Below are positions 3,114 to 10,135 of a stretch of DNA of 25,897 nucleotides, piece after piece; position 1 is the first letter of the stretch, and each line of letters opens with the position of its first letter. Source of the DNA: a virus; the IMG/VR virus record IMGVR_UViG_3300044464_000070, positions 1 through 25,897 of that record; one strand, 5' to 3'. The notes under the pieces were generated by a model, which was given only the letters and a program-made list of their open reading frames with translations, searched no databases and was not told where the DNA came from. The position numbers were made by a program, and so were the translations under genes.

Positions 3114-3356
3114 ATGGATAATTGCCCGCATTGCAAAAAAGACATTCGCAAGGAATTGATACATGAAGTTTTTGGAAGGTTGAAGGGTCACGACTTTGAG
3201 CACGAGTGTTCCTTCTGTGGTGCATTGCTCGAAGTTGAAGTTGTGCCCGTGCCTGAGTTTGAAATGTCAGTCAAAGAGCCGCCCAACACGGCGTGCACTG
3301 GATTGGCTGAAACGTCCGCAAAATTATCAGGTCTGGCGCAACCCGCCAACCAGTAA
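3114..3356 (+). CDS. gene-cassette ORF: small zinc-ribbon protein
   Basis: An 80-residue ORF with CPHC near the N-terminus and CSFC about 28 residues later, a four-Cys zinc-ribbon arrangement, followed by an acidic segment. AAGGA lies 8-13 nt before the ATG. It sits between attC-like sites 1 and 2, so it is the first cassette gene. The last 25 or so residues (from PPNTACTG onward) are translated from attC site 2 itself, because the R'' box there has lost the usual stop codon (GCCCAAC). That tail is probably not functional. Specific function is unknown; small Cys-rich proteins are common among integron cassettes. Confidence 0.6.
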   Translation: MDNCPHCKKDIRKELIHEVFGRLKGHDFEHECSFCGALLEVEVVPVPEFEMSVKEPPNTACTGLAETSAKLSGLAQPANQ

Positions 3357-4223: not shown

Positions 4224-4282
4224 TAGTTTAAGTTGAATGTTGCACGTCCCGGCTTTGTCTGGGACAATCCCATCGGAATAAT
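4197..4282 (+). promoter_or_regulatory. late promoter/leader module, copy A
   Basis: TATAAT at 4219-4224 is followed by AGTTGAAT (4231-4238) near the expected start of transcription, then a hairpin GTCCCGG/CTGGGAC (4246-4252 with 4259-4265). A TCGGAA box comes next (4273-4278), then a terminator hairpin. The upstream spacer shares TTTTCTT and GCGGG with copy B at 10005-10032, but there is no TTGACA-like -35 here. The same order of elements recurs in copy B, so the module is a duplicated regulatory unit. It precedes the holin-like gene and the packaging block. Confidence 0.6.
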
Positions 4283-4322
4283 GCACCCGATGACTCTCTT
4301 GAGTCGTCGGGCGCATTCGTTT
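4283..4322 (+). terminator. terminator-like hairpin in leader A (possible attenuator)
   Basis: An 11-bp stem (4286-4296 with 4301-4311, one G-T wobble) with loop TCTT is followed by a moderately T-rich tail. It lies between the promoter and the first gene (ATG 4348), so it would stop transcription before the gene unless read through. It is nearly identical to the stem in leader B. An alternative pairing of ATCGG (4272-4276) with CCGAT (4287-4291) could disrupt it. Confidence 0.6.
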
Positions 4323-5678: not shown

Positions 5679-5692
5679 AAGGATTGAATAAC

Positions 5693-5917
5693 ATGTTCGA
5701 ATATTTAAAAACCCTGCGATGTATTTATTTGCATAAGTCATTTTCTTATGGCTTGCCCGCTGCGGGAAAGTATTTGATTTGGGATTGCAGTTGTATTAAG
5801 TGTGGTCACCAATTCAAAATAAAAAGACCGAACACGCCGCGCTGGGTATCGCCTATTCGTTTTGACAAGACCCGTCCTGAAAGTTGGGATGAATGGAATA
5901 AGCGAAATACATCATGA
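5693..5917 (+). CDS. small Cys-containing protein inserted between terminase genes
   Basis: A 74-residue product with a C-x-C-x-x-C cluster (CSCIKCGHQF) at mid-length, likely a small zinc-binding site, and several aromatic residues. AAAGGA (5678-5683) lies 9 nt before ATG 5693, which I prefer to the TTG at 5675. The region is visibly more AT-rich than the terminase genes around it, which suggests a later insertion (moron). It overlaps the next short ORF by 4 bp (ATGA). No family is recognised. Confidence 0.55.
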   Translation: MFEYLKTLRCIYLHKSFSYGLPAAGKYLIWDCSCIKCGHQFKIKRPNTPRWVSPIRFDKTRPESWDEWNKRNTS

Positions 5918-6077: not shown

Positions 6078-7712
6078 ATGTTTGACAAAGAAAAGGCGCA
6101 GCGTGCGGTTAAGTTTATTGAGCTGATGAAGTTGACGGGGGATTTTCATGGGCAGCCGTTCAAACTGATTCCCTGGCAACATGATATTGTGTGGGATGTC
6201 TACGGGACGATGAACGCGCGCCAGGTGAGGCAGTATCGTTATGTGTATGTGTCGTGCGCAAAGAAAAATGCCAAGAGTCAATTAACTTCCGGCATCGGGA
6301 ATCTGCATCTGTTCGATAAGAACGAACCGAATGGGCAAATCGTTTTATGCGCAGGCGATCGCGAACAGGCAGAGCAAACGATCTATTATCCCCTAGTGGA
6401 AATGATCGAGCAGGAACCATCGCTGCTGAAGCGGGTGAAGATCACAGACTCTAAAAAGTTGATCGAGAATAAAGAGACCGGCACCATCTTAAAAGTGATC
6501 AGTGCCGAGGCATATACCAAACACGGCTGGAATATTTCCTGCTGCGTGTTCGATGAATTGCACGTGCAGCCCTCGCGTGATCTGTGGGATGTGATGACCA
6601 AAGGCGCAGGCTTGGCACGGCGCCAACCGATCTGGTGGGTGATCACCACCGCGGGGCTTGACCCAGATCGCAAGTCTATCGCGTGGGAAGTGCAGGAGAA
6701 AGCCGAAGCCATTCTAAAGGCGAGAGAAACGGGGGACGCGTCCAAGGACCTTGACACCTGGTATCCCGTCATCTATGCATACAACGGCGAAGATATTTAC
6801 AACGAGAAACATTGGTACGAGGCAAACCCATCCCTGGGCACCACGTTGCAGATCGAAGACCTGCGCGCCCTGGCGAATGAGGCGAAGCTGCATCCGTCGG
6901 ATGAGTTGCTCTTTCGTTGGCTCAATCTCAATCAATGGGTCACCACCAAGCTATCATCCTGGCTGCCGTTGGATCTGTTCGATAGCACAGTTGGCGAGTG
7001 GGGGCGTGCTGATATGTTGGGCAAGGAATGTTATCTCGGCATGGATCTTTCGACGACGACGGACCTGAGCGCGATCTGCCTGGTATTTCCGCCGCAAGAT
7101 GACTTCGACGATTGGCGCGTGATCTGGGATTGTTGGATACCTGAGAAAAATATGCAGGCGCGTATCAAGGAAGATCACGTGCCCTATGATGTCTGGGCAG
7201 CTGCTGGATATATTCAACCCACCGAAGGACCTGTCGTTGATTACACGGTCATCGAAGAACGGGTTCAGGAAGTGCGCAAACTCTACAAAGTGATCGAACT
7301 GGATGGGGATAAAACGTTTGCGACAATGCTATGGCAGCGCCTCGAAGCCGACCATTTGACCTGCGTGGATATCCCCCAGCATTATGCCACGCTGACAGAC
7401 CCGATCAACCAGGTGGAAGTATTGCTGAAGCAGCGCAATAAATTCGAGCTGGATGACGGCACGATCATCGAAGAACCGGCGCTGACTCACGAGGCACATC
7501 CCGTGGCGCGTTGGGCGTTTGGCAACGCCAGCATTTCGAAGAACGGCAATGCGCAGATTAAGTTGGTGAAACAACATAAGGGCAGGGGATATGATCGCAC
7601 GAAGCGCATCGATCCGATCATTGCGTGGGTGTGTGCGATGGCGCGTGCGAGATTTTACGAGACAGGCAAAAGTGTTTATGAGACGCGAGGCGTGCGAAGG
7701 TTGGGGGGATAG
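6078..7712 (+). CDS. terL: phage terminase large subunit (Terminase_1/YmfN type)
   Basis: 544 residues, the usual length. It cuts and pumps phage DNA into the prohead. The ATPase domain has an atypical Walker A CAKKNAKS (60-67; the family normally reads RKNGKS, so the central Gly is Ala here), Walker B CCVFDE (155-160) and coupling motif WVITTAG (187-193). The RNase H-like nuclease domain has Asp 323 in YLGMDLSTTTDLSA and Asp 512 in RIDPIIAW. The ATG lies 2 nt after the preceding stop. It is followed by an AGCNNTT heptamer array. Assignment is firm; whether the G-to-A change in the P-loop matters is not known. Confidence 0.93.
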   Translation: MFDKEKAQRAVKFIELMKLTGDFHGQPFKLIPWQHDIVWDVYGTMNARQVRQYRYVYVSCAKKNAKSQLTSGIGNLHLFDKNEPNGQIVLCAGDREQAEQTIYYPLVEMIEQEPSLLKRVKITDSKKLIENKETGTILKVISAEAYTKHGWNISCCVFDELHVQPSRDLWDVMTKGAGLARRQPIWWVITTAGLDPDRKSIAWEVQEKAEAILKARETGDASKDLDTWYPVIYAYNGEDIYNEKHWYEANPSLGTTLQIEDLRALANEAKLHPSDELLFRWLNLNQWVTTKLSSWLPLDLFDSTVGEWGRADMLGKECYLGMDLSTTTDLSAICLVFPPQDDFDDWRVIWDCWIPEKNMQARIKEDHVPYDVWAAAGYIQPTEGPVVDYTVIEERVQEVRKLYKVIELDGDKTFATMLWQRLEADHLTCVDIPQHYATLTDPINQVEVLLKQRNKFELDDGTIIEEPALTHEAHPVARWAFGNASISKNGNAQIKLVKQHKGRGYDRTKRIDPIIAWVCAMARARFYETGKSVYETRGVRRLGG

Positions 7713-7972: not shown

Positions 7973-8257
7973 ATGAACGCATCAGAGTTTGCAAAAGCAT
8001 ATCTAGGAGAATTCAAGACCGAAGATTGGCAAAAGGATCTTCTGGAAAACATTGAACTTCTTCAGAGATATAAATTCGGTATTCATGTTGGTGGTCAGCG
8101 CGCCCGCAAATGGCAGACTCATCTCATGTATCTGCGTGCGTGTTGGGAAATGGGGATGGAGACTTGTACGATCTCGGGTGATGTAGAGTCTATCCGCCCC
8201 AGGCTGCATGTTGTTTATGATGATTTGATCTACATGCCAAAATACCCAAAGGAATAA
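7973..8257 (+). CDS. hypothetical phage protein
   Basis: 94 residues from ATG 7973 (MNASEFAKAYLG). I chose this start over an in-frame ATG at 7889 because the upstream part is antisense to the 7742-7948 gene and because the TATAAT sits just before 7973. The sequence is mixed helix/strand, with one basic turn (GGQRARKW) and two Cys. No catalytic motif is seen. It is followed after one nt by the 8259 gene, whose ribosome binding site AAAGGA lies inside it, so both are likely co-expressed. No family is recognised. Confidence 0.55.
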   Translation: MNASEFAKAYLGEFKTEDWQKDLLENIELLQRYKFGIHVGGQRARKWQTHLMYLRACWEMGMETCTISGDVESIRPRLHVVYDDLIYMPKYPKE

Positions 8258-8258
8258 C

Positions 8259-8591
8259 ATGAAACTTTATCCAATGTATCATAAGGTTTGCGGGAAAATT
8301 TCTTTTTATACAAAGCAGCGTCTTGTTGATATGATTGATCCATGGCCTCCAAACGCAAAAGATGTTATTCTTCTCGATGGCACACAGCCGTTGAATTATA
8401 TTGATGAGCTTTTTTGCGACTCGTGTAAAACTCTTTCCCGTCGCAAGACATGGAATGAGTTTTACTATAAAAGTAATGAGCCTATTGATGTAGATTTTAT
8501 TCCACAAAAAACGTATACATCAAAAGAGTTCAACGAACTGGCAAAAGGCGATCCGTTGAAGAAGCTATGGGACGAGGATCAAGAAAAGTAG
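8259..8591 (+). CDS. hypothetical protein with CDSC zinc-ribbon-like motif
   Basis: 110 residues, AT-rich compared with the structural genes. It contains an early HKVCGKISFYTK segment and a later ELFCDSCKTL; together the three Cys and the His could bind one metal ion in the manner of short phage zinc ribbons. AAAGGA (8248-8253) precedes the ATG. Its 3' end overlaps the first copy of the 18-bp palindrome (8588-8605), which supplies the stop TAG. Function unknown. The composition and position suggest accessory cargo placed between the packaging and structural blocks. Confidence 0.6.
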   Translation: MKLYPMYHKVCGKISFYTKQRLVDMIDPWPPNAKDVILLDGTQPLNYIDELFCDSCKTLSRRKTWNEFYYKSNEPIDVDFIPQKTYTSKEFNELAKGDPLKKLWDEDQEK

Positions 8592-8687: not shown

Positions 8688-9398
8688 CTACGGCGCATGC
8701 CGCAGGGATTCCATGGCTTGAAGGAGCACGCGCTTTTCAAGGGTGGGCATGTTCTCAATTTTCTTTTCCCAACGTTTGATCTTACGCTTGATGCGCTGGC
8801 GGTCAGTGCGGTTGACGCCGAGAAATGCGTAATCATGCAGTGCAATGGGTTCGGGGTAATTCATCCATAGCCATTCTTTCGCGACTCTGCCTGCGCGGGT
8901 CATGGTGTTGTAGGAGAGTGTGCGCCAATCCTTTAATTCCCTGGCATAGAGCTTCGACCAATAGCCTGAGATCATGACCATACACTTCAGGGACTTGATC
9001 AAGGTGAGTAGAGTCTGATGTTGTTCGACGGTGTCAAACTCATGTTCGTAAATGTCACCCTGCCATGAACGCACTGGCGTGCCATCGATGTCACGCTTGA
9101 GATATGGTGGATCTAAGTATATAAAGCAGTTTTCTTCAGGGTAGCCAGATGTATCTACAGCGGACCGCAGGGTTGTGATCACGTCGTCATTTATGACTAC
9201 AGCGGCCGGTAGTGATTCGCGTAAAAGGTTTGTACAGCTGGGGTAGACATCGATGACTACGGTGACGTGGGCAGGGCGTTTCATGCGCACGATGGCACCG
9301 GAACCGACGAAGCCTTCGATGTAAACATCGTGCGGTGGGATTTGGTTGATGATGGTCTGGAAGACTCCAGCTCCGTTTTTACTGCCGGGATAGTTCAT
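8688..9398 (-). CDS. DNA adenine methyltransferase (D12 class)
   Basis: 236 residues. The N-terminal YPGSK (3-7) precedes AdoMet motif I EGFVGSGA (28-35), and the catalytic motif IV is DPPY (96-99, in YLDPPYL). These are the marks of D12/Dam-like N6-adenine methylases. The C-terminus is basic and helical (RIKRKIKRWEKK), possibly binding DNA. It is the only sizeable - strand gene here, interrupting the late operon. Phage methylases protect DNA from host restriction or act in regulation; the target site cannot be read from sequence. Its stop codon is inside one 18-bp palindrome (8674-8691), and three more copies are embedded in the coding region, read as V-x-x-x-x-(Y or D). Confidence 0.9.
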   Translation of the reverse strand: MNYPGSKNGAGVFQTIINQIPPHDVYIEGFVGSGAIVRMKRPAHVTVVIDVYPSCTNLLRESLPAAVVINDDVITTLRSAVDTSGYPEENCFIYLDPPYLKRDIDGTPVRSWQGDIYEHEFDTVEQHQTLLTLIKSLKCMVMISGYWSKLYARELKDWRTLSYNTMTRAGRVAKEWLWMNYPEPIALHDYAFLGVNRTDRQRIKRKIKRWEKKIENMPTLEKRVLLQAMESLRHAP

Positions 9399-9434
9399 GA
9401 TGATATCCTGTAGTTGAAAATGACTGCGTACGAT

Positions 9435-9462
9435 CGCAATTAGCGATTAGCTTTTAGCGATG
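9435..9462. repeat. AGCNNTT heptamer array
   Basis: CGCAATT, AGCGATT, AGCTTTT, AGCGATG in tandem, lying between two copies of the 18-bp palindrome in the 750-bp gap upstream of the methylase gene. Confidence 0.65.
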
Positions 9463-9641
9463 CTGCACGATCGCGGGTGTAGATGGAACCAACTACACTT
9501 GCCGTGCGCCCGTAGTTGTTTATGGCTGCGCAGTCTTATGTAGATGAAAACATCTACCACGCCGGCATTGTAGACGAGAATGTCTACGATGTCAAGAGTC
9601 TAGATCCCGCGCAGTTGAAAATGGCTACAGCTGCGGAGTGC

Positions 9642-9670
9642 TTGACTTTTGGAATCGGATTTGCTATTAT
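9642..9670 (+). promoter_or_regulatory. sigma70-type promoter for the structured RNA
   Basis: TTGACT (9642-9647), a 17-nt spacer, and TATTAT (9665-9670). Transcription would start at about 9677. No credible ORF with a ribosome binding site follows, and a terminator hairpin lies about 290 nt downstream, so the product is probably an RNA. Confidence 0.7.
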
Positions 9671-9676
9671 GTGCGT

Positions 9677-9993
9677 GGCGGTGTTCAGCTTGCCCCCCTC
9701 AAGCCAGAGCCGCCACTTGCTTTGATGTTTTGCTAAAACATTGGTTGGGTCGTAAGAGTCCAACCGCCGATCAGGTAATAACAGCAAAAGAGGTGCTATG
9801 CACCATGAAAGGGGCGGGCTAGGTTCCTGATCACCAATTGCCTGCCCATCATATCTTCGAAACCTTTTTTGACTTGGGGACTGGCTTGGTGTGGTGTGGA
9901 ATGAGCGCATGGAAATTCCACAAGCCCAGCTCCGTAAGATGCGCAGCCAGAGTCACATGTTAGACAAACGCCCAGATCATCGGGCGTTTGTCA
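9677..9993 (+). ncRNA. candidate structured non-coding RNA, about 315 nt, two pseudoknots
   Basis: Between a strong promoter and a terminator lies a non-coding stretch rich in helices. In order: GTGGCGG/CCGCCAC (9675-9681 with 9710-9716) enclosing GCTTG/CAAGC with a CCCCCCT loop; GGTTGG/CCAACC (9743-9748 with 9760-9765); GATCAGG/CCTGATC (9769-9775 with 9826-9832), enclosing GGTGC/GCACC (9792-9796 with 9800-9804). GGGCGGGC (9812-9819) pairs with GCCTGCCC (9840-9847), crossing the previous helix as a pseudoknot. A long hairpin follows, CTGGCTT with AAGCCCAG and TGTGGAA with TTCCACA (9881-9929). Its loop GCGCAT (9905-9910) can pair with ATGCGC (9939-9944), a second pseudoknot. It does not match tRNA, tmRNA or RNase P features I know. 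A HEARO/omega-RNA-like identity is possible but no IscB or TnpB gene is adjacent. Confidence 0.6.
9963..9992. terminator. intrinsic, probably bidirectional terminator
   Basis: Perfect 11-bp inverted repeat GACAAACGCCC/GGGCGTTTGTC (9963-9973 with 9982-9992), with an 8-nt loop. The GGGCG stem ends in TTTGT on the + strand and mirrors this on the - strand. It closes the structured RNA just upstream of promoter B. Confidence 0.75.
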
Positions 9994-10004
9994 CTTAACT
10001 GCAC

Positions 10005-10032
10005 TTGACGGTTTTCTTTGCGGGGTTATAAT
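10005..10032 (+). promoter_or_regulatory. sigma70-type late promoter B
   Basis: TTGACG (10005-10010), a 16-nt spacer, and TATAAT (10027-10032). It is followed by AGTTGAAT (10040-10047) near the expected start point, as in copy A. It drives leader B and, if read through, the gene block starting at 10149. Confidence 0.75.
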
Positions 10033-10039
10033 CTGCCTC

Positions 10040-10094
10040 AGTTGAATATTTGATCGCACTCCTGGTGTATACCAGGTGAATGTCGGAACATATT
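10040..10094 (+). promoter_or_regulatory. late leader RNA, copy B
   Basis: The transcript would begin with AGTTGAAT, then form hairpin CCTGGT/ACCAGG (10061-10066 with 10071-10076), then TCGGAA (10083-10088), then enter the terminator stem. The order matches copy A at 4231-4282, although the first hairpin differs in sequence, which argues for conserved structure. An ATG at 10080 is in frame with the 10149 gene through the terminator, so translation of a leader could influence termination. Confidence 0.6.
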
Positions 10095-10135
10095 GCGCCC
10101 GATGACTCTGTTGAGTCATCGGGCGCTTTGTTTTT
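10095..10135 (+). terminator. strong intrinsic terminator in leader B (possible attenuator)
   Basis: Perfect 14-bp stem (10095-10108 with 10113-10126), loop TGTT, followed by TTTGTTTTT (10127-10135). It lies between promoter B and the ATG at 10149, so it should block the downstream operon unless antitermination occurs. It could alternatively end a small RNA of about 95 nt. Confidence 0.8.

Follow-up and report, generated by a model that had tools for sequence, protein, structure and literature searches.

A phage locus predicted to encode a composite RNA headed by a hairpin of the Anaerolineae C6U-loop family

The virus represented by a 25.9-kb IMG/VR record, which at its full length is the window analysed here, appears to make a folded RNA of about 315 nt whose 5′ domain is a copy of a host hairpin. 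Judged by comparison with its relatives, the RNA would be a composite of this host-type hairpin, two pseudoknotted modules (A and B) and an end hairpin. The C6U-loop hairpin, which the initial annotation did not single out, is the most conserved and most widespread part of the locus, and its occurrence suggests that a bacterial small RNA not described before has been borrowed and built upon by phages. A fuller reading, that Anaerolineae carry an undescribed order-wide C6-loop small RNA and that phage copies, extended by pseudoknots, head late-region transcripts in order to imitate or compete with it, is offered tentatively, at clearly less than an even chance. The hairpin points to a small-RNA family, apparently not described before, that is present in about two thirds of the genomes sampled from a major environmental order, and it opens phage imitation of a host small RNA to testing. 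In phages whose hosts are largely uncultured, the known RNA repertoire grows by an attenuator-like element and by two pseudoknot modules with covariation support.

The non-coding stretch under study (9642-9992) is flanked on one side by a minus-strand DNA methyltransferase gene (8688-9398) and on the other by a block of genes for an HD-GYP protein, a possible spanin, the portal and the major head protein, with the gene for the large terminase (TerL) upstream at 6078-7712. The host is taken to be a member of the Anaerolineae because the TerL relatives found in assembled genomes belong, with one exception, to Chloroflexota, mainly to Anaerolineae; the exception is a short match at the edge of a contig in a Rhodobacteraceae bin. 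Isolated GenBank phages are distant from the window phage (best identity 46%), and plasmid and phage collections gave no DNA match to the locus. Related phage loci were gathered via the terminase alone (17), via alignment (80) and, for further ones, via DNA patterns, and their intergenic stretches were compared by BLAST and alignment. The phage-encoded HD-GYP domain protein (PF13487, 10413-10979) is kept in two relatives, L003 and L008. Elsewhere in the window, the gene at 219-2033 is called a terminase large subunit by PHROGs and encodes HerA/TrwB-like ATPase domains according to Pfam; the clear terminase of the window is that at 6078-7712.

The earlier proposal of a conserved non-coding locus for a structured RNA with two pseudoknots is supported by the comparative evidence. 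Neither strand holds a conserved coding frame, and the open reading frames at 9516-9725 (plus strand) and 9584-9910 (minus strand) were ruled out as genes because relatives differ by indels of 1-2 nt. All the helices originally named exist in the sequence, and none of 100 dinucleotide-preserving shuffles folds as well as the region (z = -3.37). That the RNA matches no known family also held, as an Rfam search of the region gave no match at the gathering score and none convincing at E <= 10; the best match, STnc310 on the end hairpin, was low-scoring and below the cut-off.

The C6U-loop hairpin in phages and Anaerolineae chromosomes

The locus begins with a plus-strand promoter, P1 (9642-9670), correctly read at the outset as TTGACT-N17-TATTAT, in which TTGACT (9642-9647) and TATTAT (9665-9670) are separated by a 17-nt spacer and a TG precedes the second hexamer. 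The hairpin follows at 9676-9715 on the same strand, with the loop G-CCCCCCU-C, and is expected at or within 1-2 nt of the 5′ end of the transcript. Promoter and hairpin (GGCGGTGATCAGCTTG-CCCCCCT-CAAGCCAGAAGCCGCC) are the constant part across phage relatives and stand at almost constant spacing in 20 phage loci. The phage loop reads YCCCCCU closed by UG/CA, with exceptions in L009 (TCCCTTT) and L080 (a shifted loop), and the upper stem covaries across the 20 phages (score 0.405, against 0.093 when shuffled). Between P1 and the divergent methyltransferase promoter, imperfect 20-bp palindromes of the type TGTAG-N10-CTACA recur six or seven times in an array (9409-9629); 7 matches reach at least 9 of the 10 positions, compared with a shuffle mean of 0.16. 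Similar palindromic repeats occupy the equivalent place in relatives and are probable operators, the binding sites of a phage regulator.

With a model of the phage hairpin, R1, and a threshold of E <= 1e-3, chromosomal hairpins were found in 16 of the 396 class genomes searched. The host element consists of a promoter, a 15-bp hairpin (GGGTG-CCCCCCT-CAC[CT]C) and, behind it, either ATTTAA or a T-run. Across 25 host copies stem pairing is 99.5%, the covariation score is 0.747 against 0.224 when shuffled, nine pairs show double-sided changes and the loop is invariant. Among weaker host matches the loop varies (CCCCCCC, CCACCCT, CCCCCCG), and many of these copies end in U5-U6. A second model, R2, built from host chromosomal copies alone, matched 37 of the 396 class genomes, 129 of 201 order genomes at E <= 1e-5 (1-7 copies each) and 24 of 301 genomes in a phylum draw, all of which were already in the class draw, these being metagenome-assembled genomes searched with a shortened E-value calibration. 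Beyond these Chloroflexota draws the survey took in one Rhodobacteraceae genome, in which the hairpin gave no match. Some host copies are found behind ftsK, where the gene ahead of them is mostly convergent; they therefore look like free-standing small RNA genes. Tandem hairpin genes about 170 bases apart were seen in some genomes (L155/L159, L167/L177 and other loci).

R2 also matches the window hairpin (33.8 bits, E about 2e-4), which provides an independent link since R2 never saw phage sequences, with the caveat that its training copies were fetched with the phage model and that promoter likeness adds to the score. Seventeen of the 18 other phage loci searched match R2 at E <= 1, the weakest at 0.11, and scores are weak for several of them. 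With upper-stem covariation and reciprocal matches to the host, the hairpin is best regarded as a phage member of the Anaerolineae C6U-loop hairpin family defined here. The window shares with the family a hairpin with the loop TG-YCCCCCU-CA immediately behind a sigma70-type promoter; its stem has an internal loop, and instead of forming a free-standing RNA of about 45 nt with a U-run directly behind the stem it runs on into modules A and B. The locus would accordingly be classed as a phage variant of the family, unlike the host form in its long body.

The host C6-loop hairpin RNA family seems undescribed; searched against Rfam, the host hairpin gave nothing above the cut-off (best ctRNA_pGA1, 28.2 bits versus 45), and literature searches on put RNA and Anaerolineae RNAs returned nothing relevant. 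A likeness exists to 6C RNA/B11 (RF01066) of the Actinobacteria, a small RNA with cytosine runs in hairpin loops, whose C-rich loops in mycobacteria repress mRNAs with G-tracts near their ribosome-binding sites (PMC10470900). However, 6C belongs to a different phylum and has two C-loops, whereas the host gene and the window have one C6 loop each and the phage form adds pseudoknotted modules. As the RF01066 model found no match in the window and the loop is single, the RNA was not filed under 6C; the same model was not among the matches listed for the host hairpin L168 and gave none over the cut-off in 41 order genomes.

Modules, pseudoknots and the end hairpin

Behind the constant hairpin the body varies. 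Module A occurs in the window, L003 and L008, and module B in the window, L004 and L005; other bodies follow the hairpin in L013 and L065 and none does in L007, so that among the loci compared only the window has both A and B. The module junctions are clean and linkers such as CCTTTTTTGACTT are common to relatives, and the modules therefore seem to be gained or lost as units. One fold of about 315 nt, as first envisaged, is not borne out by this separate occurrence of the two modules.

Module A (9721-9850, plus strand) comprises the helices 9728-9734/9783-9789, 9743-9748/9760-9765, 9792-9796/9800-9804 and 9812-9819/9840-9847, together with pseudoknot A, in which 9769-9775 pairs with 9826-9832. 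The predicted GATCAGG/CCTGATC pairing is supported by compensatory change, as it becomes AACCAGG/CCTGGTT in L008 through two full double substitutions, with 7 of 7 positions paired in all three sequences. In the module and pseudoknot together 99% of pairs are kept across the three, and three double-sided changes occur, two of them within pseudoknot A, against none in slid controls; helix 9792/9804 shows a compensatory change. As there are only three sequences, and 19 of 500 shuffles do as well, this covariation is support rather than proof.

Module B (9876-9954, plus strand), for which two distinct sequences were compared, is framed by the outer helix CTGGCT/AGCCAG and contains the hairpin 9896-9902/9915-9921, whose 7 pairs are all retained in L004, four of them through changes on both sides. 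Pseudoknot B pairs 9905-9910 with 9939-9944, and here too the pairing first suggested, GCGCAT/ATGCGC, persists in altered form, as L004 has ATGCAA/TTGCAT with 6 of 6 positions paired and three of the pairs changed on both sides; two random 6-mers pair by chance in about 0.3% of cases, G-U allowed. Alone, module B folds no better than shuffles (z 0.34), which would be expected if a pseudoknot, beyond what the folding program can draw, makes up much of its structure. A DNA pattern for module B picked up one further contig, L148; the register of the pseudoknot is missing there and the match seems to be due to chance. Searches for modules A and B in the 201 order genomes gave only chance-like matches of 22-33 nt.

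At 9963-9992, on the plus strand, stands the end hairpin, the probable 3′ end of the RNA. It had been described as a perfect terminator hairpin; the 11-bp pairing (GACAAACGCCC/GGGCGTTTGTC) is indeed perfect, but directly 3′ of it comes ACTTAAC and no U-run, so it is not a textbook terminator and was not flagged as one. In L003 and L008 the equivalent end hairpin is followed by a short U-run.

In L013 a different body of about 370 nt (8095-8470) follows an equivalent promoter and hairpin; it had no Rfam match and its folding energy is not unusual. In L065 a repeat of about 54 bases (GTCTTCAACCCGTCGGGGTTGATTGCCGCTCGAATGC...) stands three times head to tail at 3180-3345; the arrangement looks like a CRISPR array, but the sequence between the copies is identical.

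Attenuator-like elements before the late genes

The next transcription unit on the plus strand (10005-10134), before the late genes, has a promoter at 10005-10032 and a further element, termed C, at 10056-10134, of which the window holds a second copy at 4242-4322. Element C comprises a hairpin (GCASTCC..GGAS), a strong terminator and a segment X, which offers the 5′ arm (Y) of the terminator an alternative pairing partner, an attenuator-like pattern. It was also found in L003, L004, L006-L011, L013, L071, L072, L078-L080, L086, L107 and L143, with two copies in several phages, and gave weak matches of under 30 bits in host genomes. Across nine types of the element 44 of 45 X:Y pairs form, against 35.0 when shuffled (0 of 5000 shuffles reach it), where X and Y were picked by eye in a manner that favours pairing. 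A second kind of putative attenuator was seen at the equivalent place in L070 (~5680-5770), L074 (~2330-2425) and L081 (~2130-2235); it reads GTCG..AGTAGA-hairpin-TGAACGC..CGAC ahead of a terminator and is riboswitch-like in look.

Possible modes of action

The most likely mechanism, if still slightly on the doubtful side of even, is that of a C-loop small RNA acting in trans, by pairing with G-tracts in the leaders of mRNAs. On the mechanism that we infer, P1 would drive a phage small RNA of about 315 nt whose first domain is a phage copy of the host hairpin RNA. The host form would be a free-standing gene of about 45 nt with a promoter, a hairpin with the near-invariant loop TG-CCCCCC-T-CA and a short U tail, and the single-stranded C6 loop, held on a stable stem, could pair with G-tracts near ribosome-binding sites as in 6C/B11. 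The phage lineage would have extended this hairpin by the swappable pseudoknotted modules A and B and the end hairpin, and the two modules may confer stability or serve as additional binding domains.

The strongest rival, which we consider rather unlikely, is a late-operon leader that acts in cis. P1 would then be the late promoter, and the 5′ hairpin would load a factor onto RNA polymerase, which would read through the hairpins and element C into the late genes, in principle in the manner of lambda pR′/Q or HK022 put. The put RNA consists of two adjacent hairpins that bring about antitermination in cis, and lambda 6S and the lambdoid late leaders are short RNAs made from a promoter just before the late genes. 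The locus resembles the former as a structured RNA near a phage promoter and the latter as a short RNA that starts before the late genes and ends ahead of them, and the 315-nt species would be a prematurely ended leader comparable to lambda 6S. The fixed distance between promoter and hairpin favours such a leader, as does the position of the locus after TerL and before the portal and capsid genes. In nine or so relatives (L006, L009-L011, L071, L074, L079, L080 and L107) the hairpin is followed directly by an attenuator-like terminator, element C or one similar to it, before the next gene, with no terminator in between, and the X:Y covariation points to a conserved alternative to the terminator. 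However, the hairpin stands alone in bacterial chromosomes, mostly without an operon behind it, and we know of no free-standing chromosomal copies of put. In L150, another phage, with no terminase relative detectable in the stretch examined, the hairpin fronts a methyltransferase gene. A loop that stays invariant while the stems change freely is more typically seen when the loop binds a partner, element C in the window has a promoter of its own, and, unlike the lambda leaders, the locus has no Q or QBE that could be identified and carries a host-type 5′ hairpin with swappable modules.

A near-invariant loop and closing pairs on variable stems, in host and phage alike, would also be expected if the C6U hairpin bound a conserved host protein and the phage RNA acted as a decoy or sponge, stabilised by modules A and B, which could raise its lifetime; no candidate protein was found, and this reading is clearly unlikely. 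It is still less probable that the hairpin is a mere 5′ stability or insulating element with A and B as unrelated passengers, for example remnants of elements. Its place at the very 5′ end and the absence of any body in some relatives (L007) would fit, but a hairpin serving only as a stem would have no need of an invariant loop, and the pairing of A and B is kept through compensatory changes. The suggestion of a single large ornate RNA of the GOLLD/ROOL/HEARO type drew on the phage location, the pseudoknots and the length of about 315 nt, and GOLLD and ROOL are likewise structured, pseudoknotted RNAs borne by phages, with no known function. Yet GOLLD and ROOL are longer and often lie near tRNA islands (PMC12286853), whereas the window contains no tRNA and gives no sequence or model match to them. 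GOLLD, ROOL, HEARO, tmRNA and group I identities were all rejected, as none of the corresponding Rfam covariance models matched; since modules are moreover gained and lost separately between relatives, this reading is hardly tenable.

For the favoured trans-acting C-loop RNA, leader regions in 800 kb of one host genome, G002, which carries four copies of the hairpin, were inspected for G-tracts. Counting against the mechanism, no broad enrichment of G6 targets was seen; the result speaks neither for nor against a small number of specific ones. Of the 591 leaders GGGGGG was present in 2, and AGGGGG occurred in 5 leader regions against 1 in each control position.
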